IMG/VR virus record: IMGVR_UViG_3300006641_000049
Coordinates: 1 to 44,207 of that record
From: a virus
Length of the DNA stretch: 44,207 nucleotides
Reading direction: 5' to 3' (one strand)
Below are positions 1,009-26,840 of this stretch, piece after piece. The notes below the pieces were generated by a model. It ran no database searches. It was not told the origin of the DNA and saw only the letters and a list, made by a program, of their open reading frames with translations. Positions within the stretch are counted from its first letter, which is position 1. Each line of letters begins with the position of its first letter. Both the position numbers and the translations under genes were made by a program.

Positions 1009-1038
1009 AGTATACTAGATATTTTTATGAATTGTTAA
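1009..1038 (-). promoter_or_regulatory. sigma70-like promoter for uvsX
   Basis: -35 TTAACA (1033-1038), 18-bp spacer, -10 TATACT (1009-1014). The -35 overlaps the last codons of the downstream polymerase half. Confidence 0.6.
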
Positions 1039-2117
1039 AATAGCGTGACGTTTGGATGCACCGACCAATTACCATACGCAATAATTTTTTCGAGTGGTGC
1101 AACGAACGTCTTCTCAAATTGTTCACGACGGTCAATAAACTTTTCTAAATTCAACTCGGTCGGTAATATATGCGGTGCCGCGATAACGTTACAACCTAAC
1201 GGATTGCGTTCTTTGAGATAGCAAAATCGAATCTTTTCACCTTCACGGATGAGTGGATACTTTTGTTCAAGGTTAAGTTCATTGATGAGTTTGTTATAAA
1301 TCAACGAACCTTTCACTTGAATAGGCGTTTTTAGGCTGAACGCCCCATTCGGTAATATCGGATATTTGTCCATCTTGCTACAGGTGCGCGGCGATGCAAT
1401 ATCTGTAAATGGGCGAGTCATGAACTCATGCTCAACGGTTTCAATGAGTTTATAAAAACTATCTTCATCACGCAAAATAAAGTATTCAATCGCTTTCTTT
1501 AAATGATCACGCGCAATCTTTGGGGTGGACGAGCGAACAACTTCAACGCCTACTGTTTTAAGCTTTGGAGGATCGTATCGTACACCTTCATTGTCATGTA
1601 ACCACAAAAGATATCGCTTCTTCGCAGTCCAAATGCCATACTCAGCAATGGCTTCCCGCTTCATCGCTAGTACGTTTTCTTGAGTGTTGAAGACATAACC
1701 AATCTTTTTAAACGCATTATCAATGACTTCTTGAAGCTCGGTTTCACAATACTTATCAAGATACTCGATAATAGCATCGGTATTTGTCATATTGGCAACA
1801 GCTATAGATAGTTTTAAATACACACTATCGGTATCACTGGCGATAACATAGTCTCGGCTCGTCCCGAATTGTTTGTTCAAATATTCATTGATTGAATTTG
1901 CGACAAATCGAATAATAGTTTGTCCGACCATGGTAACTGCTTCCGCTTGCCGCAAATCGAAAAACCGAAAGTATGGACTGCCATATGAACCATACACAGA
2001 ATTTAAGACGGTTTTTTGCGTAGTTTGCTGAAGGTTGGCGCGAATAGCTAACGCCTTAAGTTCACTACGTTTCTTTAATAATTCTTCAGTCGATAACTCT
2101 TCAAGAGGGGGTTCCAT
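1035..2117 (-). CDS. 43B: DNA polymerase gp43, C-terminal half (palm/fingers/thumb)
   Basis: Carries the second half of a family B polymerase. Motif B is NSVYGSYG (about residues 39-46) and motif C SDTDSVYL holds the catalytic Asp pair. The thumb follows, with KKRYLLW, VEVVRSSTPK and LKERNPLG, all with clear T4 gp43 counterparts. Motif A and the exonuclease are on the preceding ORF, so neither half could polymerise alone. The ATG overlaps the upstream stop as TAATG, and GAGGAG lies about 11 nt upstream, both favouring independent initiation. The break falls between the two finger helices. Caution: adding one T to the TTTT run at the junction would fuse the two frames, so a homopolymer error must be excluded. 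Confidence 0.93.
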   Translation of the reverse strand: MEPPLEELSTEELLKKRSELKALAIRANLQQTTQKTVLNSVYGSYGSPYFRFFDLRQAEAVTMVGQTIIRFVANSINEYLNKQFGTSRDYVIASDTDSVYLKLSIAVANMTNTDAIIEYLDKYCETELQEVIDNAFKKIGYVFNTQENVLAMKREAIAEYGIWTAKKRYLLWLHDNEGVRYDPPKLKTVGVEVVRSSTPKIARDHLKKAIEYFILRDEDSFYKLIETVEHEFMTRPFTDIASPRTCSKMDKYPILPNGAFSLKTPIQVKGSLIYNKLINELNLEQKYPLIREGEKIRFCYLKERNPLGCNVIAAPHILPTELNLEKFIDRREQFEKTFVAPLEKIIAYGNWSVHPNVTLF

Positions 2118-3790
2118 TAAAATTGTACTCCTCGTTCTTTTAGAATATGCTCAATGCGCTCAACTTCTTTGCTGGCATTTGTTGCAATTTTTTTATTTGC
2201 AGACCGTTCATTATATAACGCGGCCAACATTTCCGACAAAAACCCAATATGGTCAACGCGAAATGCTTGCTTGTTTGGAGACACTGTGACTGATAATACG
2301 CGCAGCCACGGCCATGGGTCATCATGCGCGGAGATATCACGCAACATACTATCGATATCACTGGTTTCGAGATATTCGATGAGTGATTGTAATGCCCACC
2401 GAACAATTTTTATATCGTCCGATGATACGTTCGTAATCCATTCTCTCGGAGTGCATTCTTCACTCGAAAATACTTGAATATCTGTGTTAACGTCTTCGTA
2501 TTCAATTTGGGTCAACCGATTACGCAGCCATTCGATGGATAAATGCCGGTCTGGACTGATGTTCCACTGCCGCATGATAGACGGATATAGTGAATTCACG
2601 TCGAAAGACACCACCCATGAATGTTCACCAACAATCGGAACTTTTACATATGCACCCATAAAATCGACATTTTTTTGTTGGTCGATCTTGGTAGGGACAG
2701 CAATGTGTTTAGAGAACAACTCGTAATACATCATGGCATCCCACAAACGGACAGGTTTGAATGTGTCCACATAATTGGTGCGGGCACCATAGGCAATCTG
2801 CACACACAAGTCTAGATGGTGCAACTTATTATTCAGCGCCCGTACGAGTTCAACGTCGGTGATGTTATACGAAATGAATTTCTGATAATCCTCTTCCGCA
2901 AGTTTTTGCAACGACCCATACTCGTCGTATGACAATTTCTTCTTACCAAGTTCAGCTTCAGCAATAGCATCCAGTCGGTATGATTCTCGCTGCGTCGAGC
3001 TAAACTTCTTATACAAATCAAGATAATCTAACGAGGCGACACCTACGATGTCAATCAATTCTTGTTCGCGACCCATGATAGTAATGGAACGAGAGGTGAT
3101 TTTTCTCCATGGCGATAAGACACGCGCATCCCACTTCAGATGACCATCCTTATGCAGTAGATTAATTCGTTTGATAATATACGGAATGTCATAACCCGAG
3201 GTATTCCACCCCGTAATAATATCAGGATAATCTGTTGTCCACCATTTAATGAACGACGTAAGTAACGTGTTTTCATTCTTACATTTTGTGTAATTAATAT
3301 TTTTAGCTGTAGGTGTGTAATCACCAAAACCCCACACCCAATACGTTCCCCAAATCTCTACAGTGATGGCGGTCACGGGCTGGTATGGGTTTTCTGGTGT
3401 GGCAAATCCTCCAGTGGTTTCCACCTCAATATCCAGAAACGCAGCGCGAATGGAATCAAATGGAACCCCACACTGTGATGTGGTGTAGGACGCCATAAAC
3501 TGATGCATCGGAGAAATGACCCCAAAAATCTTTTTTCCTTCTGCGGCGGCTTGGTCAACGTAGATATTATATGTTTTGATATTTTTATGCACTCGCTGCC
3601 GAAGTGGTGTGCCATCAAGCGTTTTCCACCCATCGGTCATGTGTTCTGACGACGTTAACGAAAACGTTGTTGGTGTGAAGTCGGTGATTTTATAATACTC
3701 ACCGTGTTTTGTTTCAGGATGGCGAAGACGGATACAAATATCGTTATTAATTACCGCAATATTTGTGTATGTATCATAAAATGATGGCAT
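2117..3790 (-). CDS. 43A: DNA polymerase gp43, N-terminal half (3'-5' exonuclease, palm motif A)
   Basis: Family B replicative polymerase, N-terminal part. Exo I is AFLDIEVETTGG, Exo II ITGWNTSGYDIPYI and Exo III YNITDVELV, so proofreading looks intact. Motif A is SFDVNSLYPSI, followed by the first finger helix, where the ORF ends. Similarity to phage gp43 begins at about FYDTYTNIAVI, just after the ATG at 3790. A start at 3841 would add 17 residues encoded by a perfect hairpin. Neither start has a good Shine-Dalgarno, so the true start is uncertain. Nuclease and polymerase motifs A to C are thus spread over two ORFs in a TAATG-coupled pair. Confidence 0.93.
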   Translation of the reverse strand: MPSFYDTYTNIAVINNDICIRLRHPETKHGEYYKITDFTPTTFSLTSSEHMTDGWKTLDGTPLRQRVHKNIKTYNIYVDQAAAEGKKIFGVISPMHQFMASYTTSQCGVPFDSIRAAFLDIEVETTGGFATPENPYQPVTAITVEIWGTYWVWGFGDYTPTAKNINYTKCKNENTLLTSFIKWWTTDYPDIITGWNTSGYDIPYIIKRINLLHKDGHLKWDARVLSPWRKITSRSITIMGREQELIDIVGVASLDYLDLYKKFSSTQRESYRLDAIAEAELGKKKLSYDEYGSLQKLAEEDYQKFISYNITDVELVRALNNKLHHLDLCVQIAYGARTNYVDTFKPVRLWDAMMYYELFSKHIAVPTKIDQQKNVDFMGAYVKVPIVGEHSWVVSFDVNSLYPSIMRQWNISPDRHLSIEWLRNRLTQIEYEDVNTDIQVFSSEECTPREWITNVSSDDIKIVRWALQSLIEYLETSDIDSMLRDISAHDDPWPWLRVLSVTVSPNKQAFRVDHIGFLSEMLAALYNERSANKKIATNASKEVERIEHILKERGVQF

Positions 3791-3809
3791 ATGGATTGGA
3801 CAAATAGAA

Positions 3810-3838
3810 CCAACGGAAGTATAGCATACTTCCGTTGG
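3810..3838 (-). promoter_or_regulatory. Perfect hairpin in front of the polymerase gene
   Basis: Inverted repeat with 13-bp arms (CCAACGGAAGTAT at 3810-3822 and its complement at 3826-3838) and a 3-nt loop. It lies between the upstream stop (3851) and the ATG at 3790. It could be an RNA operator comparable in position to the T4 gene 43 autoregulatory hairpin, or a terminator; the following TTCTATTTG is only a weak U-tract. Confidence 0.6.
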
Positions 3839-3850
3839 CATGACGAACGA

Positions 3851-4189
3851 TTAGTCGGTTAAACTAATACGAGGGCCGGGAGAATTCGTTGGGAGTTCAA
3901 TACCGGCGATATTGGCGAGATAGTGTGTTTTGAACTGCTCGTCGGGGTCCATCATACACGTCACATGCAAACTTGCCACTGTGACCTGCTTGTCGGCGTT
4001 GCCCGCGAGAGAAAATGGTGTGAGTGCCATGCCAATCTTATCACCCTGCCGAACAGGCTGCACAGTGAGAGGTGATTCAAGCACATACACAATACCGTCG
4101 CCGCCGATCACTCGCGCAACGACTTCCTGCCCTGACATAAACTTGATAATCTTAATCTGCGGTCCCAATTCTGCTGTTTCTGGATTCAT
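3851..4189 (-). CDS. Possible Sm-like (LSM-fold) phage protein
   Basis: 112 residues. The N-terminal IKIIKFMSGQEVVARV and later GIVYVLESPLTVQPV match the pattern of small Sm-like proteins common in T4-like cyanophages: a beta-strand, a GQEV/GEEV turn, then a bent sheet. RNA or protein binding would be expected but is not shown. It lies between the endolysin and polymerase genes, in the same direction. The ATG is 8 bp from the endolysin stop, with GAGGAC upstream. The LSM assignment is from remembered sequence pattern only. Confidence 0.6.
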   Translation of the reverse strand: MNPETAELGPQIKIIKFMSGQEVVARVIGGDGIVYVLESPLTVQPVRQGDKIGMALTPFSLAGNADKQVTVASLHVTCMMDPDEQFKTHYLANIAGIELPTNSPGPRISLTD

Positions 4190-4196
4190 AGTGTCC

Positions 4197-4655
4197 TCAT
4201 TTTGAAAATAATTGATATTCTGCTTTTCTGCGTCGTGTTAGCCCATTAGACACGACCAGTTTTCCGTCGTTTCTAATTTTATTCCATGCGGTAAAATTAT
4301 CCTGCGTCACCGCTGAAGGGCCGAGTGCCGGATCATTGATTTTTCGTAAAATGGTCGATCCGGAGAAATTACCACTGCCAATATTATAGACGAGACAGAC
4401 GAGCGCGTCAAACTGATTTTGTGTTAATGGTTGTTTGCACAATGTTGACACGGCACGTGTTGCCGTCATCATATCCGTTTTGAGCCATACTTTTGCGTCA
4501 TCTTCGGTACACACTATTCCCGGTTTGACGGGCTGGCCATCGATAACTGTCGTGCCATACCCAATTGTCCAAACGCCCGCGCCATCTTGATATGCGGTGT
4601 TTCGAAAGCCTTCAAATTCCGTGATCAGATTAATGCCCGTGTCACTTATATTCAT
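4197..4655 (-). CDS. Endolysin, T4-lysozyme type (GH24)
   Basis: 152-residue muramidase cleaving the peptidoglycan MurNAc-GlcNAc bond at lysis. The catalytic set is E15 (EFEGF), D24 (AYQDG) and T30 (WTIGYG), spaced E-8-D-5-T as in T4 lysozyme E11/D20/T26. The second lobe has QFDALVCLVYNIGSG and the C-terminal GLTRRRKAEYQLF typical of the family. There is no signal peptide, so export by a holin is expected; none was recognised in the window. The ATG overlaps the regA stop (ATGA). A lysis gene inside the replication cluster is unusual. Confidence 0.93.
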   Translation of the reverse strand: MNISDTGINLITEFEGFRNTAYQDGAGVWTIGYGTTVIDGQPVKPGIVCTEDDAKVWLKTDMMTATRAVSTLCKQPLTQNQFDALVCLVYNIGSGNFSGSTILRKINDPALGPSAVTQDNFTAWNKIRNDGKLVVSNGLTRRRKAEYQLFSK

Positions 4656-5119
4656 GACACATGAATCTTTCCAATTTCATATTTGGCTTTGAGTTCCCAA
4701 TTTTGCTTGTCTCGGTATGAAATGATTTTGATGGTTTCAATGGGCGCTGGTTGTGGTGTATGAACACGCATTGTATCGAGGATTTCGATAAGACCCCAAT
4801 CTTGTAAAATTAGTGCGATAGCATTACGCCGAGCTAGATCATTTTCGGTAATGATAGTGCGTGATTCTTTACCATCTAACAAGAACATTTCTTTGAAATG
4901 CACTAGCCAATACCGTTGTTTTTTATGTAAGATGTGGCATGATTGCCATAAAATCTTTGTTGTATCCCCTTCAGGGGTTTTTACATATGCGGGTGCGCCA
5001 ATACGTGTTAAGGTTTCTTTTACTTTTAAAAAATTATCGGCTGGAACGTGTTGACCGTTCGCATATATAATCGGAAATTTCACCTCGATGAAACTTGATT
5101 CGTAATTATATAAACTCAT
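4652..5119 (-). CDS. regA: RegA-like translational repressor
   Basis: 155 residues from the ATG at 5119. T4 RegA binds the initiation regions of early phage mRNAs and blocks ribosome loading. Nearly colinear matches include DNFLKVKETLTRIG, WQSCHILHKKQRYW, VHFKEMFLLDGKES, LILQDWGLIEI and WELKAKYEIGK. An N-terminal extension of about 30 residues precedes the conserved core. A TTG start at 5161 is possible, but the ATG follows GGGG at good spacing and starts 16 nt after the gp62 stop. Its place between 62 and 43 is the T4 order. Confidence 0.93.
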   Translation of the reverse strand: MSLYNYESSFIEVKFPIIYANGQHVPADNFLKVKETLTRIGAPAYVKTPEGDTTKILWQSCHILHKKQRYWLVHFKEMFLLDGKESRTIITENDLARRNAIALILQDWGLIEILDTMRVHTPQPAPIETIKIISYRDKQNWELKAKYEIGKIHVS

Positions 5120-5135
5120 AGAACTGACCCCATCG

Positions 5136-5552
5136 CTAAATTCGCGATGGTTCAGCACCAAGTTTCAATACTTCCTTCATCGCGGTTATTTGTTCGGCTG
5201 TGTGGAGTCGCGCATGAAGAGTAGCTTCACGACGACCCATTCCATAGTATTTAGCGATAGTAGCAACATCGTCTTGTTCTAACGACTTAGGCCATTTTTC
5301 AAAACGACGACGTGGGCGCAAGGCATGAATATAAAACGACGCTTGAATGTCTGCATCCAGATGCCCGCGCAAATTCATTAGAGACGCAGCTAACGCCGAA
5401 TCTTCAGACAACGAAAACGCCCGATTCACCAGAAACGGTTCATAGGGCGCGTTCGCGTCTTTCAAATCCTTATACGTAAGAGGTCGTGTCTCTGAAATAG
5501 CTTTGATAGTGGTAAATGTCGTGTTTTTGGTTTCGGAAGTTTTCTTACTCAT
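5136..5552 (-). CDS. 62: Clamp loader small subunit gp62
   Basis: 138 residues. The T4 gp62 signature is clear: PFLVNRAFS, then HLDADIQASFYIHALRPRRRF-KW, then a C-terminal helix with AKYYGMGRREA and an ITAMKEVLKLG end. Partner of gp44 in loading the gp45 clamp onto primer-template. The ATG at 5552 overlaps the upstream stop (ATGA). An upstream in-frame ATG at 5567 would add five residues. It is shorter than T4 gp62 (187 residues), as usual in distant T4-like phages. Confidence 0.93.
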   Translation of the reverse strand: MSKKTSETKNTTFTTIKAISETRPLTYKDLKDANAPYEPFLVNRAFSLSEDSALAASLMNLRGHLDADIQASFYIHALRPRRRFEKWPKSLEQDDVATIAKYYGMGRREATLHARLHTAEQITAMKEVLKLGAEPSRI

Positions 5553-5767
5553 TCGGGGTCCACCCATTCAGTTGTTTGATTTACCCAGTTATGAACTGTT
5601 GAAGGAATATTCAGAGCCACCGCATATTCACAACAGGGCCATTCATAACAGGTTTCGTCAATAGGTAAATCATCCCATTCGACGCACCAATGTGCGCCGA
5701 TTCCGGTCAGAACTTCACCACGAAACGTGAGACAGTCTTCTTCCCAATCTTTACTTGTATCGGGCAT
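5549..5767 (-). CDS. Unknown 72-residue protein between gp44 and gp62
   Basis: Not recognised. It starts at the ATG inside the end of gp44 (17-nt overlap) and ends by ATGA overlap with gp62, so it is translationally locked into the clamp-loader operon. It is acidic with four Cys (DCLTF, HWCVEW, TCYEWPCCEY), the last pair possibly metal-binding. In T4, genes 44 and 62 are directly adjacent, so this is an insertion. A link to the clamp loader is suggested only by context. Confidence 0.65.
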   Translation of the reverse strand: MPDTSKDWEEDCLTFRGEVLTGIGAHWCVEWDDLPIDETCYEWPCCEYAVALNIPSTVHNWVNQTTEWVDPE

Positions 5768-6695
5768 TGTGCATAATCTCCAGAACATAGGCGGCGAGAT
5801 GCACATGAGGGTCGATTGCACTCAAATGCTTGTATTGATAATCCGCCGTCAACACAATGAGTGTCGGCAGTGTCGTTTCATCAGCGTTCTCGTGGAGCCA
5901 ATCAAACACGGCTCGATACAAACTCGCCGCGTCGATATTCGCATTCTGGCCAATCCATGCACGAGCGTCTTTGTAATTTCGTGTCTTGATAGCATTCCAC
6001 AGAGAATCATACTGCACGTCATTATGCTTACCCAGCACACGAGGCGTTAAGACACCATCAGAACACGCCAGTTGAATCTCATTGATGGTTTCACGAATAT
6101 CTGGCCAGAAACGCTTGATTGCCCCGATGATGAGCTTCTCATCCGCCGTAATCTTCTCTTCTCGCAAAATATATTGAATGCGATCTAACGTCTTCAACTT
6201 GAGTATCTTCTGTTCATCTGGTGAAGCTTCAAGATTGATGTTGGTACACCGTGACTGTAATGCAGGAATAATACGATTATTATAGTTGCACGTCAGAATA
6301 AACCCGCAATTGATTGCAAATTCCTCAATTAACCCACGCAGCGCAGGCTGAGTCGAATTTGGATTCAAAAAGTCCGCTTCGTCAATAATGACATACTTGC
6401 GTTTGCCGTCGAGAGACAAGGCTGCGGCAAAGTTTTTAATCTTTGTCCGCAGCACATCAATACCGCTTTCTTCCGACCCGTTAATAAACATGGTCGTTGC
6501 GTTCAGTTCTTTACACATCGCCAACGCCAGCGTCGTCTTTCCGATGCCGGGGTTGGTCGATGACAGAATCATGTTCGGTAAATCACCCTGTGCGATAAAA
6601 CTCTTAATCGTGTTCTTGGTATCGCTAGGTAAAATACAGTCGTCAATAGTCGACGGTCGATATTTTTCAGTCCAAATAAATTGTGTGAGAGCCAT
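5751..6695 (-). CDS. 44: Clamp loader large subunit gp44 (AAA+ ATPase)
   Basis: 314 residues, against 319 in T4. ATPase that opens and loads the gp45 clamp. Walker A is NPGIGKTTLA (about residues 47-56), Walker B YVIIDEADF, and the arginine-finger SRC motif is ALQSRCTNI. The N-terminal WTEKYRPSTIDDCILP is the classic clamp-loader opening. The ATG is 18 bp after gp45. A TTGTAA/TAGGAT promoter in the end of gp45 would start transcription at or next to this ATG, giving gp44 a possible separate message. Confidence 0.96.
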   Translation of the reverse strand: MALTQFIWTEKYRPSTIDDCILPSDTKNTIKSFIAQGDLPNMILSSTNPGIGKTTLALAMCKELNATTMFINGSEESGIDVLRTKIKNFAAALSLDGKRKYVIIDEADFLNPNSTQPALRGLIEEFAINCGFILTCNYNNRIIPALQSRCTNINLEASPDEQKILKLKTLDRIQYILREEKITADEKLIIGAIKRFWPDIRETINEIQLACSDGVLTPRVLGKHNDVQYDSLWNAIKTRNYKDARAWIGQNANIDAASLYRAVFDWLHENADETTLPTLIVLTADYQYKHLSAIDPHVHLAAYVLEIMHNARYK

Positions 6696-6701: not shown

Positions 6702-6730
6702 ATCCTACCACACTTATCGAGACTTTACAA
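6702..6730 (-). promoter_or_regulatory. Possible internal promoter before gp44
   Basis: -35 TTGTAA, 17-bp spacer, -10 TAGGAT; 6 bp from the gp44 ATG. AGGA inside the -10 may also act as Shine-Dalgarno if a longer transcript is used. Confidence 0.4.
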
Positions 6731-7451
6731 CATGTCCTGATGTCAAATAGGTGACCTTTCGCGTAGGGTCGTTCAGTGTCAGAAACATTCCAAACAGTTG
6801 ACGTGTGGTACCGGCAATACTGATATCTCCCACTCTCACGGTGTAATCACCGGGAATAAGCTGAAGCACATCAAACTTGACGGCCCATGTGTTTGGCTTA
6901 TCATCTACGATATTTGTATTTGGCATGTTGTAGGTCGCCACGCCGGTCGAATCACTACCCTTTTCTTCATTGACCAGATTGACCTGAAGTTTTCCGTCAT
7001 CGTCAATAATAATGTACAGGGCATTTGCATCAAGAATCGCTGCCGTCCTCTTCATCTTCGCCCACATGGCGGCTGGAAGATCAAATGAGGCAATTTCGTG
7101 ATCCATACGATACTGATTGTCTGGAAGCTTGGTCACCACATCCGCATGAGCATATGGAATCGTCACACGACCATGATCATGTAGTACCGTCAGGGATGCG
7201 TCTTCAAACAAAATCGACGGTAGCGAGGTTCCCTTGCACGTGTCAATGATGCCGAGCAGACGATTCAACTCATACAACGAGCATTCAACGGGAAGCGGGT
7301 CTGATAGTTCTACGTCTGCGATAAAATTACGGCTCTGATTGCAAGCCCGTTGAAATGTTCCGGCTTTAAACGTTGCCTGTGTGTTAATATTGGCGAAGTT
7401 TTTCAGAATTTCAAGGGTCGAATCGGTCAATGTATAGGGTGTATTCATCAT
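6714..7451 (-). CDS. 45: Sliding clamp gp45
   Basis: 245 residues (T4: 228). Trimeric ring that gives gp43 processivity and, in T4-like phages, activates late transcription. The N-terminal LTDSTLEILKNFANINTQA and the central VTIPYAHADVVTKLP are typical of gp45. First gene of the core run 45-44-x-62-regA. GAGG lies before two consecutive ATG codons (7451, 7448). The late-promoter octamers found at 9.8-19 kb fit the presence of this clamp. Confidence 0.92.
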   Translation of the reverse strand: MMNTPYTLTDSTLEILKNFANINTQATFKAGTFQRACNQSRNFIADVELSDPLPVECSLYELNRLLGIIDTCKGTSLPSILFEDASLTVLHDHGRVTIPYAHADVVTKLPDNQYRMDHEIASFDLPAAMWAKMKRTAAILDANALYIIIDDDGKLQVNLVNEEKGSDSTGVATYNMPNTNIVDDKPNTWAVKFDVLQLIPGDYTVRVGDISIAGTTRQLFGMFLTLNDPTRKVTYLTSGHVVKSR

Positions 7452-13110: not shown

Positions 13111-13301
13111 GCGCGTTCCTTCCACGGTTCCAGCCGAACATCGCCGCCAAACGCAGTGTCTACCGTGAAATACAGTGTTTCGTCGCCGCCATCTGTCGGT
13201 TGAATGGAAAACTTGGGCAATCCACCATTATCCAACACCCGCACGGCATACGTCGTATTATTACGAGTCAATCCATTCCTAAATAATTCAGTCAATGTCA
13301 T
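13107..13301 (-). CDS. Unknown 64-residue protein
   Basis: Predicted compact beta-rich protein (TYAVRVLDNGG, ETLYFTVDTAFGGDVRLEPW). ATGAGGAG upstream gives a strong ribosome site. First gene of a four-gene minus-strand run ending in two membrane proteins. Not recognised. Confidence 0.75.
   Translation of the reverse strand: MTLTELFRNGLTRNNTTYAVRVLDNGGLPKFSIQPTDGGDETLYFTVDTAFGGDVRLEPWKERA
13279..13285 (+). promoter_or_regulatory. Late promoter-like element for the ArdC-like gene
   Basis: CTAAATA, 62 bp before the ATG at 13348, on the plus strand inside the divergent 64-aa gene. Confidence 0.45.
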
Positions 13302-13322
13302 AAAATGCTCCTCATGGGAAGC

Positions 13323-13328
13323 AGTATA
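13323..13328 (-). promoter_or_regulatory. -10 element for the 13301 operon
   Basis: TGGTATACT with no clear -35, 21 bp before the ATG. Confidence 0.4.
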
Positions 13329-13347
13329 CCATGAGAAAGGAAACGAT

Positions 13348-14643
13348 ATGTCAGATTTTTTACGTATTACAAAAAAACTTCTTGCTGAAATGCATCAACG
13401 ACAAACTCGTCGCGAAAAACTTCGGAATATTCGCACGACGGTCGAACAAGGTCGTTTATTACCAGAAAATCTGATCGTGAAGCGAGATACGGCGAACAAT
13501 CGATTGGTGGTGCAATCCGATAAGGATACACCAAACGCTCGGGCCAAAGAAACTATTGCGTTATCAAAAGAATTTCGAAAGATTGGTTTAGACTTTGATC
13601 GTTCGTTGGGTATGTGGGTGGGTGATATTAACAAATTTGATGTGATTAAACAATTCATCACTCAACATAACGCCAAGACTCCTTCAGCCGATCCTACGGC
13701 TAAAGCCTTAGATACATTAGAAGACCTTGAAGATTTTATTCAAGATGCTGACGTACCCAGCACAGACAAAACAACAATACTCGATAAGTTGGATGCCTAC
13801 ATTGACGAGTTAGCCAATGCCACTGATCAAGCGGCCATGGATCAGGCTATTACCAAATATTTGGATTTCTATAAAAAATTCTATAAGTATAGTTGGACAA
13901 ATTCGTGGTTAATTTTCTTGCAACGTCCAGATGCAAAACAAGTTGCTGGTTTTAATAAATGGAAAACCATGCATCGCGTTGTTAAGAAGGGTGCAAAGGC
14001 CATTTGGATTATTGCGCCAATCGTCACAAAAGCCAAAGGCAAAGATGCAACTAGTGATGATTATAGTGACGTAGATGACGCAATTAAGAATAAAACACAG
14101 ATTCGTGGGTTCCGCCCTGTTCCCGTCTTTGATATTGCAGACACGGAAGCAACCAGCGCAAAGGGTGAAATTCCAGACGAGCCGAAGTGGTTCAGCGATA
14201 ACACGCCAGACGAAGTAGCCGCACAACTGACCGAACGTCTCAAAGAATTTGCGCAATTGAATAATATTACCATTACAAAAGAAGCGTCTCGTGGTGGTGA
14301 AAAAGGCTTCAGTGCCGGTGGCCATATCAATCTCTCGTCAGATGTACAGGGTGTTGGTGAGGCTAGCACACTTGTGCATGAAATCGCGCATGAATTGCTC
14401 CACTGGAAAAAGTCCTCGATTTTCCATATTGATGACGAAGAATCAAATACTCGTGCAATGAAGGAATTGCAAGCTGAATCCGTGGCGTATGCGGTCATGA
14501 AATATTATGAGTTTGATGTCAAGCATCAGCCTACATATCTCGCCCTGTGGAAAGCCAATAAGGATTTGATCAAGAAGAATCTGAATATTATTACGAAGTG
14601 CGCCCGTTATATTATTGACGGGGTGGACAGCCTCAAATCGTAA
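13348..14643 (+). CDS. ArdC-like antirestriction protein with zincin metallopeptidase domain
   Basis: 431 residues from the ATG after AAAGGA. The N-terminal 100 residues are basic with an unusual DKDTPNARAKETIALSKEF stretch. The middle has the ArdC-N pattern: a helix with KFYKYSWTNSWLIFLQRPDA, VAGFNKWKTMHR, VKKGAKAIWIIAPI, then RGFRPVPVFDIADTE. The C-terminus has a zinc-protease site LVHEIAHELLHW with a downstream Glu helix (ELQAESVAYAVM). ArdC proteins of plasmids and phages bind ssDNA and protect incoming DNA from restriction. One of three plus-strand genes in the window. Converges 1 bp from the 14645 gene. Confidence 0.82.
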   Translation: MSDFLRITKKLLAEMHQRQTRREKLRNIRTTVEQGRLLPENLIVKRDTANNRLVVQSDKDTPNARAKETIALSKEFRKIGLDFDRSLGMWVGDINKFDVIKQFITQHNAKTPSADPTAKALDTLEDLEDFIQDADVPSTDKTTILDKLDAYIDELANATDQAAMDQAITKYLDFYKKFYKYSWTNSWLIFLQRPDAKQVAGFNKWKTMHRVVKKGAKAIWIIAPIVTKAKGKDATSDDYSDVDDAIKNKTQIRGFRPVPVFDIADTEATSAKGEIPDEPKWFSDNTPDEVAAQLTERLKEFAQLNNITITKEASRGGEKGFSAGGHINLSSDVQGVGEASTLVHEIAHELLHWKKSSIFHIDDEESNTRAMKELQAESVAYAVMKYYEFDVKHQPTYLALWKANKDLIKKNLNIITKCARYIIDGVDSLKS

Positions 14644-19474: not shown

Positions 19475-19519
19475 CCCTCCCCCCTGTCAAGGAAAAGATT
19501 TCGCTGGACAGGGGGAGGG
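19475..19519. terminator. Hairpin downstream of the 19528 gene
   Basis: Arms CCCTCCCCCCTGTC and GACAGGGGGAGGG (13 bp, one bulge), 9 bp past the stop of the minus-strand gene. No U-tract, so rho-independent termination is not assured. Confidence 0.45.
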
Positions 19520-19527
19520 ACGGTGTG

Positions 19528-19851
19528 CTAGATGGCCAGCGCCATCTTGCGGTGCAGATCAATCACATATGATCCGCCGTCGTGGTCGATATCTGGCACC
19601 GTGCGTTCCCACGACACCCGCAATTGCCGTGTCAGATACTCGCGGGTGTGTGCGGTGGCGTCGTCTGGGCGCGACCAGTAGCGTTCCGCGTGATAGGCCA
19701 GCACCAATGCAATCACGATGAACTGAATCTGTTCCACCGGCATCGTCGGCAGTGTGTCCGCGTATTCCGTCAGCAGGAACTGCGCGGCGAACTCCAGCGC
19801 CATGCCGTAATCATTGTCGCAGAGATACAACAACAAAAAGTTTTGTTTCAT
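19528..19851 (-). CDS. Unknown phage protein (107 aa)
   Basis: All-helical in appearance (LEFAAQFLLTEYADTLPTM, IQFIVIALVLAYHAERYW) with an opening LLYLCDNDYGMALE pattern found in other phage hypotheticals. The start follows TGGAG. First gene of the GC-rich block. Role unknown. Confidence 0.72.
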   Translation of the reverse strand: MKQNFLLLYLCDNDYGMALEFAAQFLLTEYADTLPTMPVEQIQFIVIALVLAYHAERYWSRPDDATAHTREYLTRQLRVSWERTVPDIDHDGGSYVIDLHRKMALAI

Positions 19852-19979
19852 CGAATGCTCCACTGCCGCATTGCTGCGGCGGAAACGGGCGTAGCGGGCG
19901 AGAAGTCGTCTCGCCCGCCACTGCCCTATGGTTGTCGGTCGGTCGTGGCTCCTGCGGCTCCGTAGGGGCGCTAGCCCTT

Positions 19980-20207
19980 CTAGGCGAAGTAGATGGTACG
20001 AACGTCGTCGGGGTTAACGTCCATATCGGTATTGACTGTTTGGTTGTGGCTGGCGTGGACGACCGTCCAACGGACAGCCAGCTTCCAGCCGTCTTCCTGC
20101 ACGACACCGTACACGGTGCCGCGAGTGCCAGCCAGCACGATGGCGACGTGCTGTTCGCCGTTCTCGATCCACGTCTGCGAGATGGTACGAACCGCTTCGA
20201 TGTTCAT
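19980..20207 (-). CDS. Unknown 75-residue protein
   Basis: Small beta-rich protein (QHVAIVLAGTRGTVYGVV, WKLAVRWTVVHA), SH3-like in hydropathy pattern but not assignable. GGAGAAC precedes the second ATG. Not recognised. Confidence 0.68.
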   Translation of the reverse strand: MNIEAVRTISQTWIENGEQHVAIVLAGTRGTVYGVVQEDGWKLAVRWTVVHASHNQTVNTDMDVNPDDVRTIYFA

Positions 20208-20271
20208 CAATGTTGTTCTCCCAGATGAAGACGAGCAGCAGAGGTTGCCCCCTGCTGCTCAGGTTTGTAGG

Positions 20272-21072
20272 TTAGCTGACGATAGGCCGCTTGCCGGTGG
20301 CGAAGCTGCGGTCGTCGGCCTTGCGCTGCCACGTGGCCGTGACGGTCACGGTGTCGCCACGGTTGATGCCGCTCCCGCTGGGGCGAGTGCAGAACACCCG
20401 TGCGCCGTTGGGAAGCTCGACCAGCATCTTCACGACGACATCCCACGCGTTGTATGAGAAGTCGTTCTGGTATTCCTTCAGGCTGACGACGGTGCCGGTG
20501 ACGGTGGCGCGGCCTTCCGGCGCATCGCCCTTCGGCGTCAGCGCAGCCGCCGCCTTCGCCGCCGCCCGCTCGATGTCGCGGTGGAGGCTCTGCTCGACGG
20601 TGACACGCTGCCGGTCAGTGAGCGACCCGTAGCGGTTGATGCTCTCCAGCACCGAGAGGGCGAAGCCGTTGCGCCCGTGGACGGGATGATTCACGCCCTG
20701 TTCCATCACCGGCTGCGCGAGGGCGGCGAAGTCGGGATACTTCTGCCAGAACGCTTCGATGCTCTGGCGCAGACGCTGCGAAGCGGCGTGAGCGGTGGCA
20801 CGGGCCTGAAGCTTCGCCAGCAGGTATTCCGACCGGCCAGAGAAGCCCAGCTTGTCGGTGCAGATGGCACCGAAGACGACGAGCGTCTGCGTCGGCGCGT
20901 GGCGGCAGACCGTGATGTAGCGCACGGTGCCGTTGCCGCAGTGACAGCACTTGTGTGTGCTGCCGGTGATGTTGAGTGCGCGAAGCTCGACGGTGTCGAG
21001 TTGGTTGTCGAAGTAGCCGGTGACGGTGTAGTCGGTCGGGTTGAAGTGCGTCGGGTTGTGAATGGTGGACAT
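20272..21072 (-). CDS. Unknown protein with Cys pair and possible OB-like C-terminus
   Basis: 266 residues. THKCCHCGNGTVRYITVC (residues 39-56) may bind zinc. The middle is helical (LQARATAHAASQRLRQSIEA). The last 90 residues alternate strands (ATVTGTVVSLKEYQ, VVKMLVELPNGARVFCT, GDTVTVTATW), suggesting an OB-like nucleic-acid-binding barrel. The start follows AGGTGA. Assignment of the fold is tentative. Confidence 0.75.
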   Translation of the reverse strand: MSTIHNPTHFNPTDYTVTGYFDNQLDTVELRALNITGSTHKCCHCGNGTVRYITVCRHAPTQTLVVFGAICTDKLGFSGRSEYLLAKLQARATAHAASQRLRQSIEAFWQKYPDFAALAQPVMEQGVNHPVHGRNGFALSVLESINRYGSLTDRQRVTVEQSLHRDIERAAAKAAAALTPKGDAPEGRATVTGTVVSLKEYQNDFSYNAWDVVVKMLVELPNGARVFCTRPSGSGINRGDTVTVTATWQRKADDRSFATGKRPIVS

Positions 21073-21139
21073 GGTTTCACCTCAAAAGAATTTCGGTTGA
21101 ATGTGATGTAGTGGGTTTCGGTCTGAGGCGCATGCAGGT

Positions 21140-21544
21140 TTAGTTGCTGTTGCGCTCAGTCCACTCGCTGACCGGCGCAATCGCCGGTTCGAGGTTCGTT
21201 GTGTAGTCGGCAATGGCGTCCCATCCATCGTTGCCATACACAAAGTAGATGTAGCCGTCCGGAAGGTCGTTCGTATCCGTGTCCGGCTTGTAGGCGATGA
21301 GGAATTCCTCATCCACGTCCATCATGCCGTCCAGCACCTTCTGCTGGTCGGTCGTCGGCGGAAACTCGCAGCATGGCTCACCGGAATACTGCACCGAGAG
21401 CTTGTAGCCCGCCGCGAGAAGAGCTTCGACGGTGCGCGTGACCACTTCCGCCTCGATAGTGATACGGCGGCAGGTATGGCACCAAACCCGCGACCGATTG
21501 TCGGCGGGCGTTTCCTGATGCGTCGAGCAGGTGTTACGAAGCAT
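21140..21544 (-). CDS. Unknown protein with Cys motifs
   Basis: 134 residues from the ATG after GGAGA. VWCHTCRR near residue 20 plus an upstream TCSTH make a possible zinc site. The rest is acidic, ending in NLEPAIAPVSEW. No known family recognised. Confidence 0.7.
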   Translation of the reverse strand: MLRNTCSTHQETPADNRSRVWCHTCRRITIEAEVVTRTVEALLAAGYKLSVQYSGEPCCEFPPTTDQQKVLDGMMDVDEEFLIAYKPDTDTNDLPDGYIYFVYGNDGWDAIADYTTNLEPAIAPVSEWTERNSN

Positions 21545-21736
21545 GTCTGTCTCCAAATCTGAAGGCTTGCGCCTCAGACCGAAAACCACTACAATGGTCG
21601 TTCGTTTTATTCAGTTGTCAGGGAGCGCCGTTCACCGGCACCGTGCGCCGATGAAGAGATATTATCACAGATGGGCCGTCGTGCAACACAAAAACGACAG
21701 GGTGTCGAAAAAAAATTATGGATGGGGTGACGGCGT

Positions 21737-21810
21737 GTGTCCTGATTCGAGGACAGCCGCCGGTTGGTGTCCTGAAAAGTGGACACTGTCCTGTCTGGAG
21801 GATAGTGGCC
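21737..21810. repeat. GAGGACA palindrome cluster (short copy)
   Basis: Three units with right arms at 21749, 21779 and 21798. The first, TGTCCTGATTCGAGGACAG, is identical to a unit of the array at 30.4 kb. Confidence 0.7.
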
Positions 21811-21887
21811 GGAAGCGGTGCCGCCGGATATGCGTGAACCGCCATGGGCGCATTCCGCACTGGCACAGCGGCACCGCTGCCGTTGTT

Positions 21888-21917
21888 CCCCACCACCACG
21901 CAGGGTTGGTGGTGGGG
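21888..21917 (-). terminator. Hairpin after the 21935 gene
   Basis: Perfect 11-bp stem, 8-nt loop, 17 bp past the stop. No U-tract follows. Confidence 0.45.
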
Positions 21918-21934
21918 TTACTGGTGGCGAGTCT

Positions 21935-22183
21935 CTACCACACGACCCTCACACCCTTTCGCCGCCGCCAGCCCAGCACCGTCGAGGCGTCGTTGATCTG
22001 GTCGAGGTACTTACACTCGGCGTGGGCATCGCCCATCCGTGCGGCGTTCTCGGCGGCTTCGCTGGCGTCCTGCATGATGTAGCGCAGGGAGGCGTCGGTC
22101 CTGCGCCAGTAATGCTCGTGCTGAAGGTGCATCTCTGGCGCTTTCGGAATCACGTCGTAGGTGGTGTAGGTGGTCACAGTCAT
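21935..22183 (-). CDS. Unknown 82-residue protein
   Basis: Starts MTVTTYTTYD; the middle is helical and Ala-rich (DASEAAENAARMGDAHAE), ending basic. GAGGAG precedes the ATG, and the promoter lies 25 bp further up. Not recognised. Confidence 0.68.
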   Translation of the reverse strand: MTVTTYTTYDVIPKAPEMHLQHEHYWRRTDASLRYIMQDASEAAENAARMGDAHAECKYLDQINDASTVLGWRRRKGVRVVW

Positions 22184-22208
22184 TCGGCGCTCCTCAACTC
22201 TGAGAACA

Positions 22209-22237
22209 AGGATAGCACGGCGTTCTGTGCCAGTCAA
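22209..22237 (-). promoter_or_regulatory. Promoter for the 22183 gene
   Basis: -35 TTGACT, 17 bp, -10 TATCCT. Confidence 0.7.
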
Positions 22238-22261
22238 CACATTTCTGCGAAAGATATTAGG

Positions 22262-22295
22262 AGGCCCGGCCCCTTATCTATTAGGCCCGGCCCCC
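22262..22295. repeat. Paired GC-rich direct repeat
   Basis: AGGCCCGGCCCC twice, start to start 21 bp, 25 bp upstream of the promoter -35. A similar pair is at 30911-30944. Confidence 0.6.
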
Positions 22296-22301
22296 TAACG
22301 T

Positions 22302-22481
22302 TCACGCCCGTCGCCAGCTTGAGTCGCGCTCCTCGCGGTCTTCGTAGGCAGTAACGGCATCCCACAAGGCGTCCATACGGGCAACGTCCTCTGGAGTGGC
22401 AAGCCCGTCTTGTTCCTTCTCTTCTAACTCGTTGGCCTCGTCAACTGCTTTCTCGTACTGTGTGTACGTCGTAATCTTCAT
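22302..22481 (-). CDS. Unknown 59-residue acidic protein
   Basis: Helical (YEKAVDEANELEEKEQDGLA, then MDALWDAVTAYEDRE). Starts 1 bp after the upstream stop; GGGAGGG lies about 10 nt before the ATG. Likely co-translated with 22483. Confidence 0.7.
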   Translation of the reverse strand: MKITTYTQYEKAVDEANELEEKEQDGLATPEDVARMDALWDAVTAYEDREERDSSWRRA

Positions 22482-22482
22482 G

Positions 22483-22686
22483 TTATACATTCCCTCCCTC
22501 TGCCAGTGCGGCACAACGTGGACACATCTGATTGATGGACGCACGACGACCGCTGCATGTGGTGTAGTCACGTCTGCCGATACAGGGACACTGTCGCACG
22601 ACGGCCTTAAGACGTTGCACCTGCGCCTTTGTGGCGTCCAGTTCAGCCAGCAGCTTTGCGATTGACTCGTTTTGGATTTCGCCCAT
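22483..22686 (-). CDS. Unknown protein: coiled coil plus Cys cluster
   Basis: 67 residues. An N-terminal heptad-like helix (IAKLLAELDATKAQVQRLK) is followed by RQCPCIGRRDYTTC and MCPRCAAL, five Cys that could bind zinc. No Shine-Dalgarno: the -10 lies 6 bp from the ATG, so the message should be leaderless. Confidence 0.7.
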   Translation of the reverse strand: MGEIQNESIAKLLAELDATKAQVQRLKAVVRQCPCIGRRDYTTCSGRRASINQMCPRCAALAEGGNV

Positions 22687-22692
22687 GTAGAG

Positions 22693-22722
22693 ATTCTCTC
22701 ACAGAAGACGGGTGGTTGTCAA
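22693..22722 (-). promoter_or_regulatory. Promoter, leaderless placement (22686)
   Basis: -35 TTGACA, 18 bp, -10 GAGAAT; 6 bp to ATG. Confidence 0.7.
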
Positions 22723-22778
22723 TCCATCGTGAGATGCAGGTCCGCCTCGTAGGCAGTAACAGCATCCCCCCTATCGTG

Positions 22779-23192
22779 TTACGCCTTGTTGTTCATCTGC
22801 GTCAACTCCGCCGCAACTACATACGCGGCGTCCCAATCCTCACGGCTCGGATACAGCTTCCCACACCGCTTGAACGCCATCTGTGCCGCCCGCTTGAATG
22901 GCACGTTTGCCACGATCTGCACGTCCACGTTGTCGCACGACCAGACTTCCAGCGTGTTGAGGTCGAGGTAGTTGGTGGTGTATCGCTTGGTGAACCCGAA
23001 GCTCCGGAGTTCATCATGCAGCTTGTACCCCTCGCTCATTGGCATCTGAACGAAGTAGTCCCAATCGCTGGAGGGGCGGTTGGTCCCAAAGAACCGCGAA
23101 CCCGACAGGTAGAACGTGTAGGTGCTGGCGGCAAGCTTGTCCAGCGCCGTCTTCGGCTGCATCGTCTGATGGTTGTTGTCGTCAATCAGCAT
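22779..23192 (-). CDS. Minimal nucleotidyltransferase (Pol-beta superfamily)
   Basis: 137 residues. FYLSGSRFFGTNRPSSDWDY is the GSxxxG...SDxD signature, and VDVQIV supplies a third Asp. The size fits MNT-type enzymes, which transfer NMP or AMP groups to proteins, RNA or small molecules. No HEPN partner is seen nearby, so this is not an obvious toxin-antitoxin pair. AAGGAGAG precedes the ATG, with a strong promoter upstream. Catalysis and target are inferred only. Confidence 0.72.
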   Translation of the reverse strand: MLIDDNNHQTMQPKTALDKLAASTYTFYLSGSRFFGTNRPSSDWDYFVQMPMSEGYKLHDELRSFGFTKRYTTNYLDLNTLEVWSCDNVDVQIVANVPFKRAAQMAFKRCGKLYPSREDWDAAYVVAAELTQMNNKA

Positions 23193-23213
23193 TCGTCTCT
23201 CCTTGTGTAAACC

Positions 23214-23243
23214 ATTCTACAACAGGGTGTCGGTCGGTGTCAA
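23214..23243 (-). promoter_or_regulatory. Promoter for the nucleotidyltransferase gene
   Basis: -35 TTGACA, 18 bp, -10 TAGAAT. Confidence 0.75.
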
Positions 23244-23252
23244 GGAATGTTT

Positions 23253-23342
23253 TTATCCTCGTCTGAACCAGCCACGCATGAGCCAGAGGCACCAGTCGGT
23301 GAGCCAGTCCCAGCGAGACGGTCGAAGCGGTCCTACAGCCAT
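23253..23342 (-). CDS. Possible 29-residue Trp-rich peptide
   Basis: ATG overlaps the last codons of the 23333 gene. It has five Trp and ends RGWFRRG. Short, and without its own ribosome site, so it would depend on coupling. Low certainty. Confidence 0.3.
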   Translation of the reverse strand: MAVGPLRPSRWDWLTDWCLWLMRGWFRRG

Positions 23343-23701
23343 CCGACCAGCGCCAGCAGCCCGATGATGACCGATGCCATGCCGACGATGCTCATCATGT
23401 AGAGAACGAAGACCTGTTCGTCGGTGGCCCTGTTCTCCAGCCAGAGGCGATAGCGGTCACGCCACGTCAGCTTGCGTTCATGCCAGCGCCCGTCAGGGCC
23501 GCACGTGGGGAAGAACCCGTCGTCGTCCCGCTGGTTGGCGCACAATGTCTTGTGGTATTGCTCTTGTCGTGACTCGCCGGTCACGACGTTGATGTTCATC
23601 GTGAGATGCTGCTGCGATTCCGGATGGTGGCACTCGTGGTAATGAAACTGAGACGGTTGCCGATGATGTTTGCACGTGACGCAGAGCTTGATGGTGTCCA
23701 T
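23333..23701 (-). CDS. Zinc-finger-like membrane protein
   Basis: 122 residues. The N-terminus has CVTCKHH and HECHHPESQQH, then CANQ and CGPDG, a Cys/His-rich head likely to bind zinc. After a basic stretch (HERKLTWRDRYRLW) comes one C-terminal transmembrane helix (MMSIVGMASVIIGLLALVGW). A tail-anchored cytoplasmic zinc domain is a plausible topology. GAGGAA precedes the ATG. Confidence 0.78.
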   Translation of the reverse strand: MDTIKLCVTCKHHRQPSQFHYHECHHPESQQHLTMNINVVTGESRQEQYHKTLCANQRDDDGFFPTCGPDGRWHERKLTWRDRYRLWLENRATDEQVFVLYMMSIVGMASVIIGLLALVGWL

Positions 23702-23724
23702 GGGTTCCTCAGAAAGATGACACC

Positions 23725-23753
23725 AGTCTACCATGACGGCAGACCGGTGTCCA
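23725..23753 (-). promoter_or_regulatory. Promoter for the 23701 gene
   Basis: -35 TGGACA, 17 bp, -10 TAGACT. Confidence 0.65.
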
Positions 23754-23761
23754 TTCAATTG

Positions 23762-24154
23762 TTAGCCTTGCTGCATAAGGAAGGCTTCCATCGCGGGCGA
23801 CGGCACGTAGCGCGGGTTGGTGCGCTCGAAGGTGACAGGGTCGAGGCGCGGCGACGGATAGGTGATGTGCCCGCCGTCGTACTCCAGTTGCAGCCGTTCG
23901 TCTTCCGGCACGTAGTCATCGGACTCGATGTGCCATCCGATGATGAACTCTTCCTCGAAGTCTGTGTGCCGTTCAAGGCGTTCGGCGGCGACTGCGAGAA
24001 CCTGCTCCAGCGCAGCGGCGTTGATGCTGCTGCCCATCGGGATGAGGTAGGACGAGCCTCCCTTGCTCTTCCAGTATTGCGGGCAGGCACCGACGCCGTC
24101 CCAATTGTGTGCGCCGTAGTTTTCGCGGTTCTGCGTTTCCATCACCAGAATCAT
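23762..24154 (-). CDS. Unknown phage protein (130 aa)
   Basis: Contains ENYGAHNWDGVGACPQYWK and SSYLIPMG, an aromatic/Gly pattern recurring in hypothetical phage proteins. GGAGGA precedes the ATG. Acidic overall. Function not known. Confidence 0.72.
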   Translation of the reverse strand: MILVMETQNRENYGAHNWDGVGACPQYWKSKGGSSYLIPMGSSINAAALEQVLAVAAERLERHTDFEEEFIIGWHIESDDYVPEDERLQLEYDGGHITYPSPRLDPVTFERTNPRYVPSPAMEAFLMQQG

Positions 24155-24174
24155 GCTGTCCTCCACTGACAAGC

Positions 24175-24203
24175 AGTGTAGCACGGTCGTTGAGCGAAGG
24201 CAA
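24175..24203 (-). promoter_or_regulatory. Promoter for the 24154 gene
   Basis: -35 TTGCCT (in a hairpin arm), 17 bp, -10 TACACT. Confidence 0.6.
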
Positions 24204-24234
24204 GCGGAAACATTTAAAAACATTTCCGCTTGCC
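24199..24234. repeat. GGCAAGCGGAAA hairpin, copy 1
   Basis: 12-bp arms, 12-nt AT-rich loop, between the 24249 stop and the next promoter. Same arm as copy 2. Confidence 0.65.
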
Positions 24235-24248
24235 GTTGATGTCAGACG

Positions 24249-24737
24249 CTAGATGGCGTCGAGTGCCTTCTGCTCGGAGGCAGTCAGCGCCTTCGCCTTC
24301 GTCGTCGCGTCGGCCAGCATCTTCTGGCGCAGCCCGACGATGAAGTCGTTGAGCTTGATGTTTCGTGCGGCACAATGCTTCTCGTTGTCCTTCTCCATCG
24401 TGTCGAAGTCAACCCGCTCACGCCAACCCGTGCGAGACGCCGCCGATTTGACGATGTTTTGAAATTGCCACGACGCCTGAAGGTCGCAGTTCCATTCAGA
24501 GCCTTTGAACCGCTGCGTGAAGTCGTCCACGAGCTTGAGCGCAGCCCGGAACGTGTTGAACTCGTCCACCTTCGGGTGCTTTTCCGCCGCCTTGTTCTTC
24601 TCGTCCCGAATCCGCTGGCTTTCGGTCTGGTAGTCGTTCCAGATGGCCTTGCTCTTGTCCATGAGAATGGCCTGCGTCACCTTGGGCAGTCGGAACGGTT
24701 CGGTCAGTCGGTTGATGGTACGAACGTCGAGTCTCAT
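24249..24737 (-). CDS. Unknown helical protein (162 aa)
   Basis: Long charged helices (SQRIRDEKNKAAEKHPK, KMLADATTKAKALTASEQK) and WNCDLQASWQFQNIV. AAAGGAGA precedes the ATG. Not recognised. Confidence 0.75.
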   Translation of the reverse strand: MRLDVRTINRLTEPFRLPKVTQAILMDKSKAIWNDYQTESQRIRDEKNKAAEKHPKVDEFNTFRAALKLVDDFTQRFKGSEWNCDLQASWQFQNIVKSAASRTGWRERVDFDTMEKDNEKHCAARNIKLNDFIVGLRQKMLADATTKAKALTASEQKALDAI

Positions 24738-24764
24738 ATGTCTCCTTTGAACGTTGATGAAATA

Positions 24765-24793
24765 ATTCTCTCACACTACCGTGTCGTTGTCAA
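24765..24793 (-). promoter_or_regulatory. Promoter for the 24737 gene
   Basis: -35 TTGACA, 17 bp, -10 GAGAAT. Confidence 0.7.
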
Positions 24794-24947
24794 TCGTGTT
24801 TGTGATTCGCACATCGGGGTGCATACCAAACCACTCCTCCTCCGGTTCCTCGTTGGGATAGGAATCCAATGCGTCTTCCTCTGTCTCTGCGTCCACGACC
24901 CAGATTCGGGTGACCATCTCGGTGCGTTCGATTCGATACTTGGGCAT
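24771..24947 (-). CDS. Small MPxYxV-type protein (58 aa)
   Basis: Starts MPKYRIERTEMVTRIWVVDA, then an acidic helix EEDALDSY. Distant relative of the 26841 gene (MPTYKVMLTQAVYFSVEVVV), a type common in phages. GAGGAC precedes the ATG. It ends inside the promoter of the 24737 gene. Confidence 0.7.
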   Translation of the reverse strand: MPKYRIERTEMVTRIWVVDAETEEDALDSYPNEEPEEEWFGMHPDVRITNTIDNDTVV

Positions 24948-24971
24948 ACTGTCCTCGGTGGGTTGGGAGAA

Positions 24972-25007
24972 GGCAAGCGGAAAATGTTTTTTCTTTTTCC
25001 GCTTGCC
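24972..25007. repeat. GGCAAGCGGAAAA hairpin, copy 2
   Basis: Perfect 13-bp arms, 10-nt loop with a T run, just after the 25018 stop and before the 24947 gene. Confidence 0.65.
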
Positions 25008-25017
25008 GTGGTGGGAT

Positions 25018-25383
25018 TTAATCCCAGCCTTTCTCGAACGTGTTGGTTTCGGGAGATGCCCACCAAACGATGCTGCCAGTGTCAACATCCAGCGCGAACA
25101 GGGCTTTTGGCACGGATGGGTAGCTCTGTTCATTCAGACCCAGCGCCGCCATACCGGTCGCACTGCTCACCGTGATATACGACCTGCCGCGGTGGCGGAA
25201 CTTCGTTCCCGGTTTGAACAGAATCTTCGCCGCCTCTTCCTTTTCGCGCTGCTTCACGAGTTCCAGAAGCTGTTCCAATTCCTCGCGGTTCAGCGTCAGG
25301 CTCCACTTGATCTCCACGACCACGGTGTTCTTGTAGTCGATCGACAGGTCAAACCAATCCTCTTGGAATTCTTTCAGTTTCAA
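25018..25383 (-). CDS. Unknown 121-residue protein, TTG start
   Basis: The start is TTG after CGGAGA, with no ATG nearby. N-terminal strands (DLSIDYKNTVVVEIKWSL), a helix (REELEQLLELVKQREKEE), then a C-terminal beta unit (KFRHRGRSYITVSSATG). Not recognised. Confidence 0.72.
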   Translation of the reverse strand: MKLKEFQEDWFDLSIDYKNTVVVEIKWSLTLNREELEQLLELVKQREKEEAAKILFKPGTKFRHRGRSYITVSSATGMAALGLNEQSYPSVPKALFALDVDTGSIVWWASPETNTFEKGWD

Positions 25384-25422
25384 TATCGTCTCCGTGTGTT
25401 GTGCGGTGTGCAGTAGAAGAAC

Positions 25423-25452
25423 AGTCTATCACACACCGCTTCACCGTGTCCA
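25423..25452 (-). promoter_or_regulatory. Promoter for the 25383 gene
   Basis: -35 TGGACA, 18 bp, -10 TAGACT. Confidence 0.65.
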
Positions 25453-25460
25453 GTCTTTTG

Positions 25461-25538
25461 TTACCAGCGGGTGAACTTGCCGTCGCGGTGTCCCTTCGGC
25501 TTCTTGCCGTCCTTGTACACCGTCGCCTTTGCCTTCAT
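25461..25538 (-). CDS. Basic 25-residue peptide
   Basis: Nine Lys/Arg in 25 residues, ending KFTRW. AGAGGAG at ideal distance from the ATG and a near-consensus promoter upstream argue that it is translated despite its size. A basic peptide of 46 aa at 37618 has similar style. Confidence 0.6.
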   Translation of the reverse strand: MKAKATVYKDGKKPKGHRDGKFTRW

Positions 25539-25594
25539 GGTCTGCTCCTCTGAGGGAAGTGGTGGAGGGTTCCTCTCCCTCCACCATGAGAACG

Positions 25595-26830: not shown

Positions 26831-26840
26831 TATTTTTGTG

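Follow-up and report, generated by a model that had tools for sequence, protein, structure and literature searches.

A T4-type DNA polymerase gene divided at the fingers tip by a compact, insert-free stop-start junction in a viral genome record

Is the interruption of an essential phage polymerase gene at this locus genuine, and how did the gene come to be encoded in two pieces? In an IMG/VR record of 44,207 bases (IMGVR_UViG_3300006641_000049; the whole stretch was analyzed and is called the window here), two minus-strand ORFs together make up one T4-type family B DNA polymerase (gp43; Table 1). As a first-pass annotation had read from the ORFs, the exonuclease and motif A lie on one ORF and motifs B and C on the next. 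43A comprises the N-terminal domain, the 3'-5' exonuclease, palm motif A and the first finger helix, and 43B the second finger helix, motifs B and C, KKRY (residue 166) and the thumb. Both halves match RB69 gp43, 43A by sequence and structure. Further matches were obtained to PF03104 (2.3e-20), PF00136, phrog_262 and phrog_2062 for 43A and to PF00136 (6.8e-11), phrog_262 and phrog_1918 for 43B. These Pfam, PHROG and PDB matches are well above chance level, and separate PHROG families already exist for the two halves (2062 and 1918). Every catalytic residue of the exonuclease and polymerase motifs is intact, including Exo I (DIE, residue 137), Exo II (GWNxxxYDI) and Exo III (YNITD, residue 325) of 43A. 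The observed split of gp43 into two ORFs is confirmed as real, and the gene is a genuine and probably functional split gene whose products presumably assemble.

Table 1 Features of the split gp43 locus and its replisome neighbors (window coordinates).
Feature	Position	Strand	Basis or size
43B, C-terminal polymerase subunit	2117-1035	-	360 aa
Motif C DTDS, 43B residues 95-98	1824-1835	-	
43B N-terminal helix, residues 10-45 (36), second half of hairpin	1983-2090	-	AlphaFold2
Motif B KTVLNSVYG, 43B residues 35-43	1989-2015	-	
TAATG stop-start overlap, 43A/43B	2115-2119	-	sequence
GAGGAG, likely Shine-Dalgarno of 43B, within final 43A codons	2133-2128	-	sequence
43A C-terminal helix, residues 534-569 (36), first half of hairpin	2135-2242	-	AlphaFold2, pLDDT mostly 71-82
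Motif A SFDVNSLYPS, 43A residues 412-421	2579-2608	-	
43A, N-terminal polymerase subunit	3841-2117	-	574 aa
regA	4652-5161	-	Pfam, PHROG
Clamp-loader small subunit, gp62-like	5136-5567	-	Pfam, PHROG
gp44-like	5751-6695	-	Pfam, PHROG
Sliding clamp, gp45-like	6714-7451	-	Pfam, PHROG

The tabulated replisome genes are accompanied by a dNMP kinase gene beside gp43 (Pfam/PHROG) and by a RecA/UvsX-like gene on its other side (assigned by eye only, from the Walker A motif GDPATGKT). Given these neighbors, the split gene belongs to the core replisome operon of a T4-like phage; it is no isolated fragment. A phage lysozyme gene (PF00959; 4197-4655, minus strand) sits within this operon, between regA and 43A. 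Elsewhere in the window, a 479-aa ORF (13204-14643, plus strand) resembles ArdC-type anti-restriction proteins (PF08401, phrog_7245). The region 19500-38000 reaches a GC content of 54-61%, holds no ORF above about 340 aa and gave no convincing gene layout under alternative codes; the ORFs sampled there had no PHROG match, except 20272-21072. Tandem arrays of the hexamers TCCGTA/TCCGTC occupy 31627-32099 and 32275-32367.

At the junction, the TAA of 43A (2119-2117) and the ATG of 43B (2117-2115) share one base, and a T run ends at the stop codon (2122-2119). Both the TAATG overlap and the GAGGAG ahead of the second start are present as first noted. Such a configuration could reflect a one-base length error in a gene that is really continuous, since a change of this size by the junction would fuse the frames, and relatives with unsplit gp43 do exist. 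In practice, this reading, which the first-pass annotation had kept as a fallback, is refuted. The junction is identical to that of the window over the 2,807 bases in three other IMG/VR contigs (L005, L006 and L007, whose source samples may overlap), of which L006 is a separate assembly because it carries one SNP elsewhere. Similar arrangements recur in other lineages, with TAATG junctions in L114, L122 and L123 and a 4-nt overlap in Aeromonas phage vB_AdhaM_G2. Furthermore, the extended tail of 43A and the extended N-terminal helix of 43B are of the split-gene type and lacking in unsplit relatives, and both halves belong to established PHROG families. Relatives with a single uninterrupted frame had been named in advance as evidence against a true split. 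They were found (L010 and L011, with a gp43 of 893-894 aa), but this does not turn the split into an artefact: L008, the twin of L010, is split and has an additional gene within its break.

The second fallback is a programmed -1 frameshift, or equally slippage of transcription at the T run, either of which would yield a fused polymerase besides 43A. It draws on the short T run right at the stop and on the single base by which the frames differ. By inspection, no slippery heptamer of the form X-XXY-YYZ precedes the 43A stop in the zero frame (codons GTA CAA TTT TAA). The T run is missing from the junctions of L114, L122 and L123, whereas a stop-start overlap preceded by a Shine-Dalgarno-like sequence is seen repeatedly. 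In relatives with inserts of about 1 kb, fusion is impossible, yet both halves are retained. Frameshifting or slippage is accordingly unsupported and, in our judgment, very unlikely.

The absence of a homing endonuclease or intein between the ORFs, as first described, was borne out. The window has no endonuclease ORF between 43A and 43B, and a tblastn search of the window for remnants with five endonuclease queries gave no credible match (best E 0.37). No intein domains were found at the ends of 43A and 43B, and neither the sequence nor the AlphaFold2 models contain an extra domain. An Rfam scan of the window returned no group I intron at gathering score, and there is no space for an intron between the two ORFs because they overlap by one base. 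P0004 had no match in the phage collection.

The fingers of RB69 gp43 are a pair of long antiparallel helices that turn at the tip. Structural alignment of the AlphaFold2 model places the end of 43A at RB69 residue 509-513, and sequence alignment places the start of 43B near residue 526 (anchored by the pairing of RB69 546 with residue 22 of P0002, a sequence that carries one additional residue at its start). The break therefore lies at the fingers tip, between the finger helices, in agreement with the original proposal. One finger helix closes 43A (...ILKERGVQF) and another opens 43B. The pLDDT of the 43B helix runs from 84-77 at its start to 42-54 at its end, and the 43B model as a whole is of modest confidence (pTM 0.51); both models are of single chains, with input alignments of contig sequences only.

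The nearest relatives of the window gp43 share about 60% identity with it. Relative to the unsplit L010, its halves are about equally conserved (61% for the N-terminal and 64% for the C-terminal half). This bears on whether the interruption of an essential gene marks a decaying, non-functional polymerase, a reading that we consider highly improbable: the two halves are equally conserved, catalytic residues and start signals are all intact, and no second polymerase is seen within the 44-kb piece of genome covered by the record.

Among these relatives, L008/L009 and L099 have gp43 broken at the same site as in the window, and the ORF that splits it (309 aa; 73% identical between L008 and L099) combines helix-turn-helix domains with an endonuclease-like end. 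Its helix-turn-helix matches are strong and a PHROG "HNH/homing endonuclease" match was obtained (1.5e-13 to 9e-9); DUF559 reached only E 0.0021, below its cut-off, and a tentative EDxHD/Vsr-like assignment was made by eye from an IEMDGVYWH-type motif. An endonuclease-like ORF also lies in the break in L100 and L102/L103, and partly in L093. Within the clade of the window, the break contains a related endonuclease-like ORF in two of the three split members. In L099, three kinds of mobile element were seen in one gp43 (4001-6614): the endonuclease-type ORF that splits the gene (4001-4930), a group I intron in motif B (Rfam RF00028, 4962-5168) and, at motif C, a mini-size intein-like insert (ASDTDS ... 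VHNSIYVK) with no evident endonuclease domain.

The split L008 and the unsplit L010 are about 99% identical, and their main difference is a short tract around the break. On the 5' side, most of the length shows only 0-2 differences per 100 nt. Approaching the break, the count climbs to 8, 8 and 12 per 100 nt over the final 300 nt, reaches about 50% at the break itself and falls from 12 to 1 beyond it. Smaller, separate patches of difference lie near 4901 and 7561. By the break, the L008 tip is 78% like that of the endonuclease-bearing L099 and 43% like that of L010, while the L010 tip is 76% like that of the unsplit L011 and 38% like that of L008. An allele exchange separates the two contigs. 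Judged from sequence, the tract has the pattern that would be expected of homing with co-conversion, or of some other form of allele exchange, and either direction would fit.

To place the split in a wider context, about 186 gp43 loci were classified, in a sample drawn by similarity and not at random. The same break was found in the window and in contigs L008, L018, L039, L093, L099, L100, L102, L114-L116, L118, L122 and L123, in cyanophages S-CREM2, S-N03 and ACG-2014f, and in Aeromonas phages 44RR, 31.2 and G2; phiAS4 and Acinetobacter phages have a split polymerase by annotation. The TAATG junctions named above belong to lineages other than that of the window, and L039 overlaps by 14 nt. 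The contents of the break vary: it may be empty or hold an endonuclease-like ORF, a GIY-YIG endonuclease, small unrelated ORFs (S-CREM2 and L018 carry non-endonuclease ORFs) or a spacer only (44RR). On a tree built from backbone columns, with most of the tip left out, the split label requires at least 15 changes of state (14 without Straboviridae), and split rows show mild clustering relative to shuffles. Two further observations concern single contigs. In L043 (2690-3250), an HNH endonuclease-like ORF interrupts gp43 at another site, just past motif A. L018 has a permuted/alphaproteobacterial-type tmRNA match near its split gp43 (18-394; Rfam RF04321, RF01849), which is a possible hint at the host.

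Split and unsplit genes also differ in tip length, measured from the finger anchor lysine to motif B, with tail and head summed for split copies. Unsplit copies other than T4 have a median of 36 aa (28-50, n = 150), and split copies total 58-80 residues, depending on the start codons chosen. Long tips are not exclusive to split genes: T4 has a tip of 76 aa and is unsplit, so a long tip is no proof of splitting, and L117 blurs the boundary further. Its gp43 is unsplit, with a 50-residue tip (about 1791-2000) that opens like the split tails (KQKLVDIESQLKNR); this gene may represent an intermediate, either re-fused or pre-split. The split tail (KQ-LVDIE-EMKRRG) is, in several lineages, at least as similar between far clades as the backbone is (L102/L123: tail 91% versus backbone 70%), and the unsplit sisters of such lineages have a different, short tip. 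The tails are short and the sample was drawn by similarity, so this resemblance across far clades is suggestive. An RRG ending does not hold for all split tails, as L008, L018, L039 and L198 deviate. At several junctions, including that of the window, the tail codons also provide the Shine-Dalgarno-like sequence for the next ORF.

From these data, we consider it likely that the window encodes a translationally coupled two-subunit polymerase, specified by a split fingers-tip allele that lacks the homing endonuclease. A single message would give rise to 43A and 43B by coupled translation through the stop-start overlap and the Shine-Dalgarno sequence in the 43A codons. The two chains would then assemble without splicing into an active polymerase by pairing of the finger helices, whose tips are longer than those of most unsplit relatives. 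We infer assembly, activity and coupling here; for phage 25, the split 43A and 43B purify together and are active as a polymerase, in the account that PMC2988022 gives citing Petrov 2010. In sister lineages, a freestanding homing-endonuclease-type gene fills this break, and recombination would carry the split allele from one polymerase gene to another; the lineage of the window has no endonuclease gene there, and its two cistrons abut directly.

The most likely origin of the window gene is a homing-type split allele minus its endonuclease. We infer the former presence of an endonuclease at this junction, and its later loss, from relatives, because the window holds neither the gene nor a remnant. 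The order of events could also be the reverse, with a simple mutation splitting a long, tolerant fingers tip and homing endonucleases arriving secondarily. Endonuclease-free breaks are common (window, L039, L114, L122, L123, G2 and 44RR), and the break may precede the endonuclease because some split genes hold only non-endonuclease ORFs or a spacer. In addition, T4 proves that long unsplit tips exist, and PMC2988022 considers this sequence of events for phages 25 and 44RR as well, leaving the question undecided for them. Since the related endonuclease-like ORF occupies the break in most split members of the window's own clade, and the L008/L010 tract is typical of homing, we consider the mutation-first order unlikely, though clearly more credible than error, decay or frameshifting.

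A broader proposal goes further, and for it we would stop a little short of an even bet. The fingers tip of T4-type polymerases may be a two-allele locus, with a compact unsplit form and a longer split form (extended helices, coupled stop-start and an optional endonuclease), each conserved and swapping by recombination across many lineages. Far from being sporadic damage, the split would then be maintained as an allele that is mobile and self-assembling. The L010/L008 contigs offer a natural pair, unsplit versus split with an endonuclease-like gene, through which the origin of gene splitting becomes testable. That the helices are consistently longer at the break hints at how an essential enzyme tolerates cutting and could be useful for protein-engineering splits. 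A split allele with longer helices that is scattered over lineages, together with the L008/L010 pair, may come as a surprise to specialists.

The arrangement is of a known but uncommon kind, and the window gp43 is a compact, insert-free addition to the few known two-chain replicative polymerases. Aeromonas phages 44RR2.8t, 31.2, 25 and phiAS4 (43A/43B), whose split gp43 was described by Petrov et al. 2010 according to the review in PMC2988022, show the same enzyme and the same division of motifs. As the first-pass annotation had stated for some T4-like phages, the site itself is a known one, with 44RR, 31.2, S-CREM2 and others broken at the same fingers tip. In those Aeromonas phages, however, a spacer or a seg/GIY-YIG endonuclease lies between the halves, whereas the ORFs of the window overlap by one base. 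Cyanophages S-CREM2, S-N03 and ACG-2014f share the break and have a 43A tail of the (K)RRG type but, unlike the window, carry small ORFs between the halves. In Acinetobacter phages Meroveus and AM101, the C-terminal half (gp43B, "split DNA polymerase") is a separate gene as in the window; in Meroveus, 43B is immediately preceded by a mobE-like gene and is not adjacent to 43A. The insertion of an endonuclease that yields two reassembling polypeptides is known from Aeh1 nrdA/mobE and T4 topoisomerase/mobA (PMC2988022), and L008 and L099 match this endonuclease-fractured layout, while the window retains no endonuclease. The compact, insert-free junction also occurs elsewhere: Aeromonas phage vB_AdhaM_G2 (PQ066597) has an abutting ORF pair with a stop-start overlap and no insert, although its overlap is 4 nt long and its identity to the window polymerase is only about 31% over the aligned backbone.
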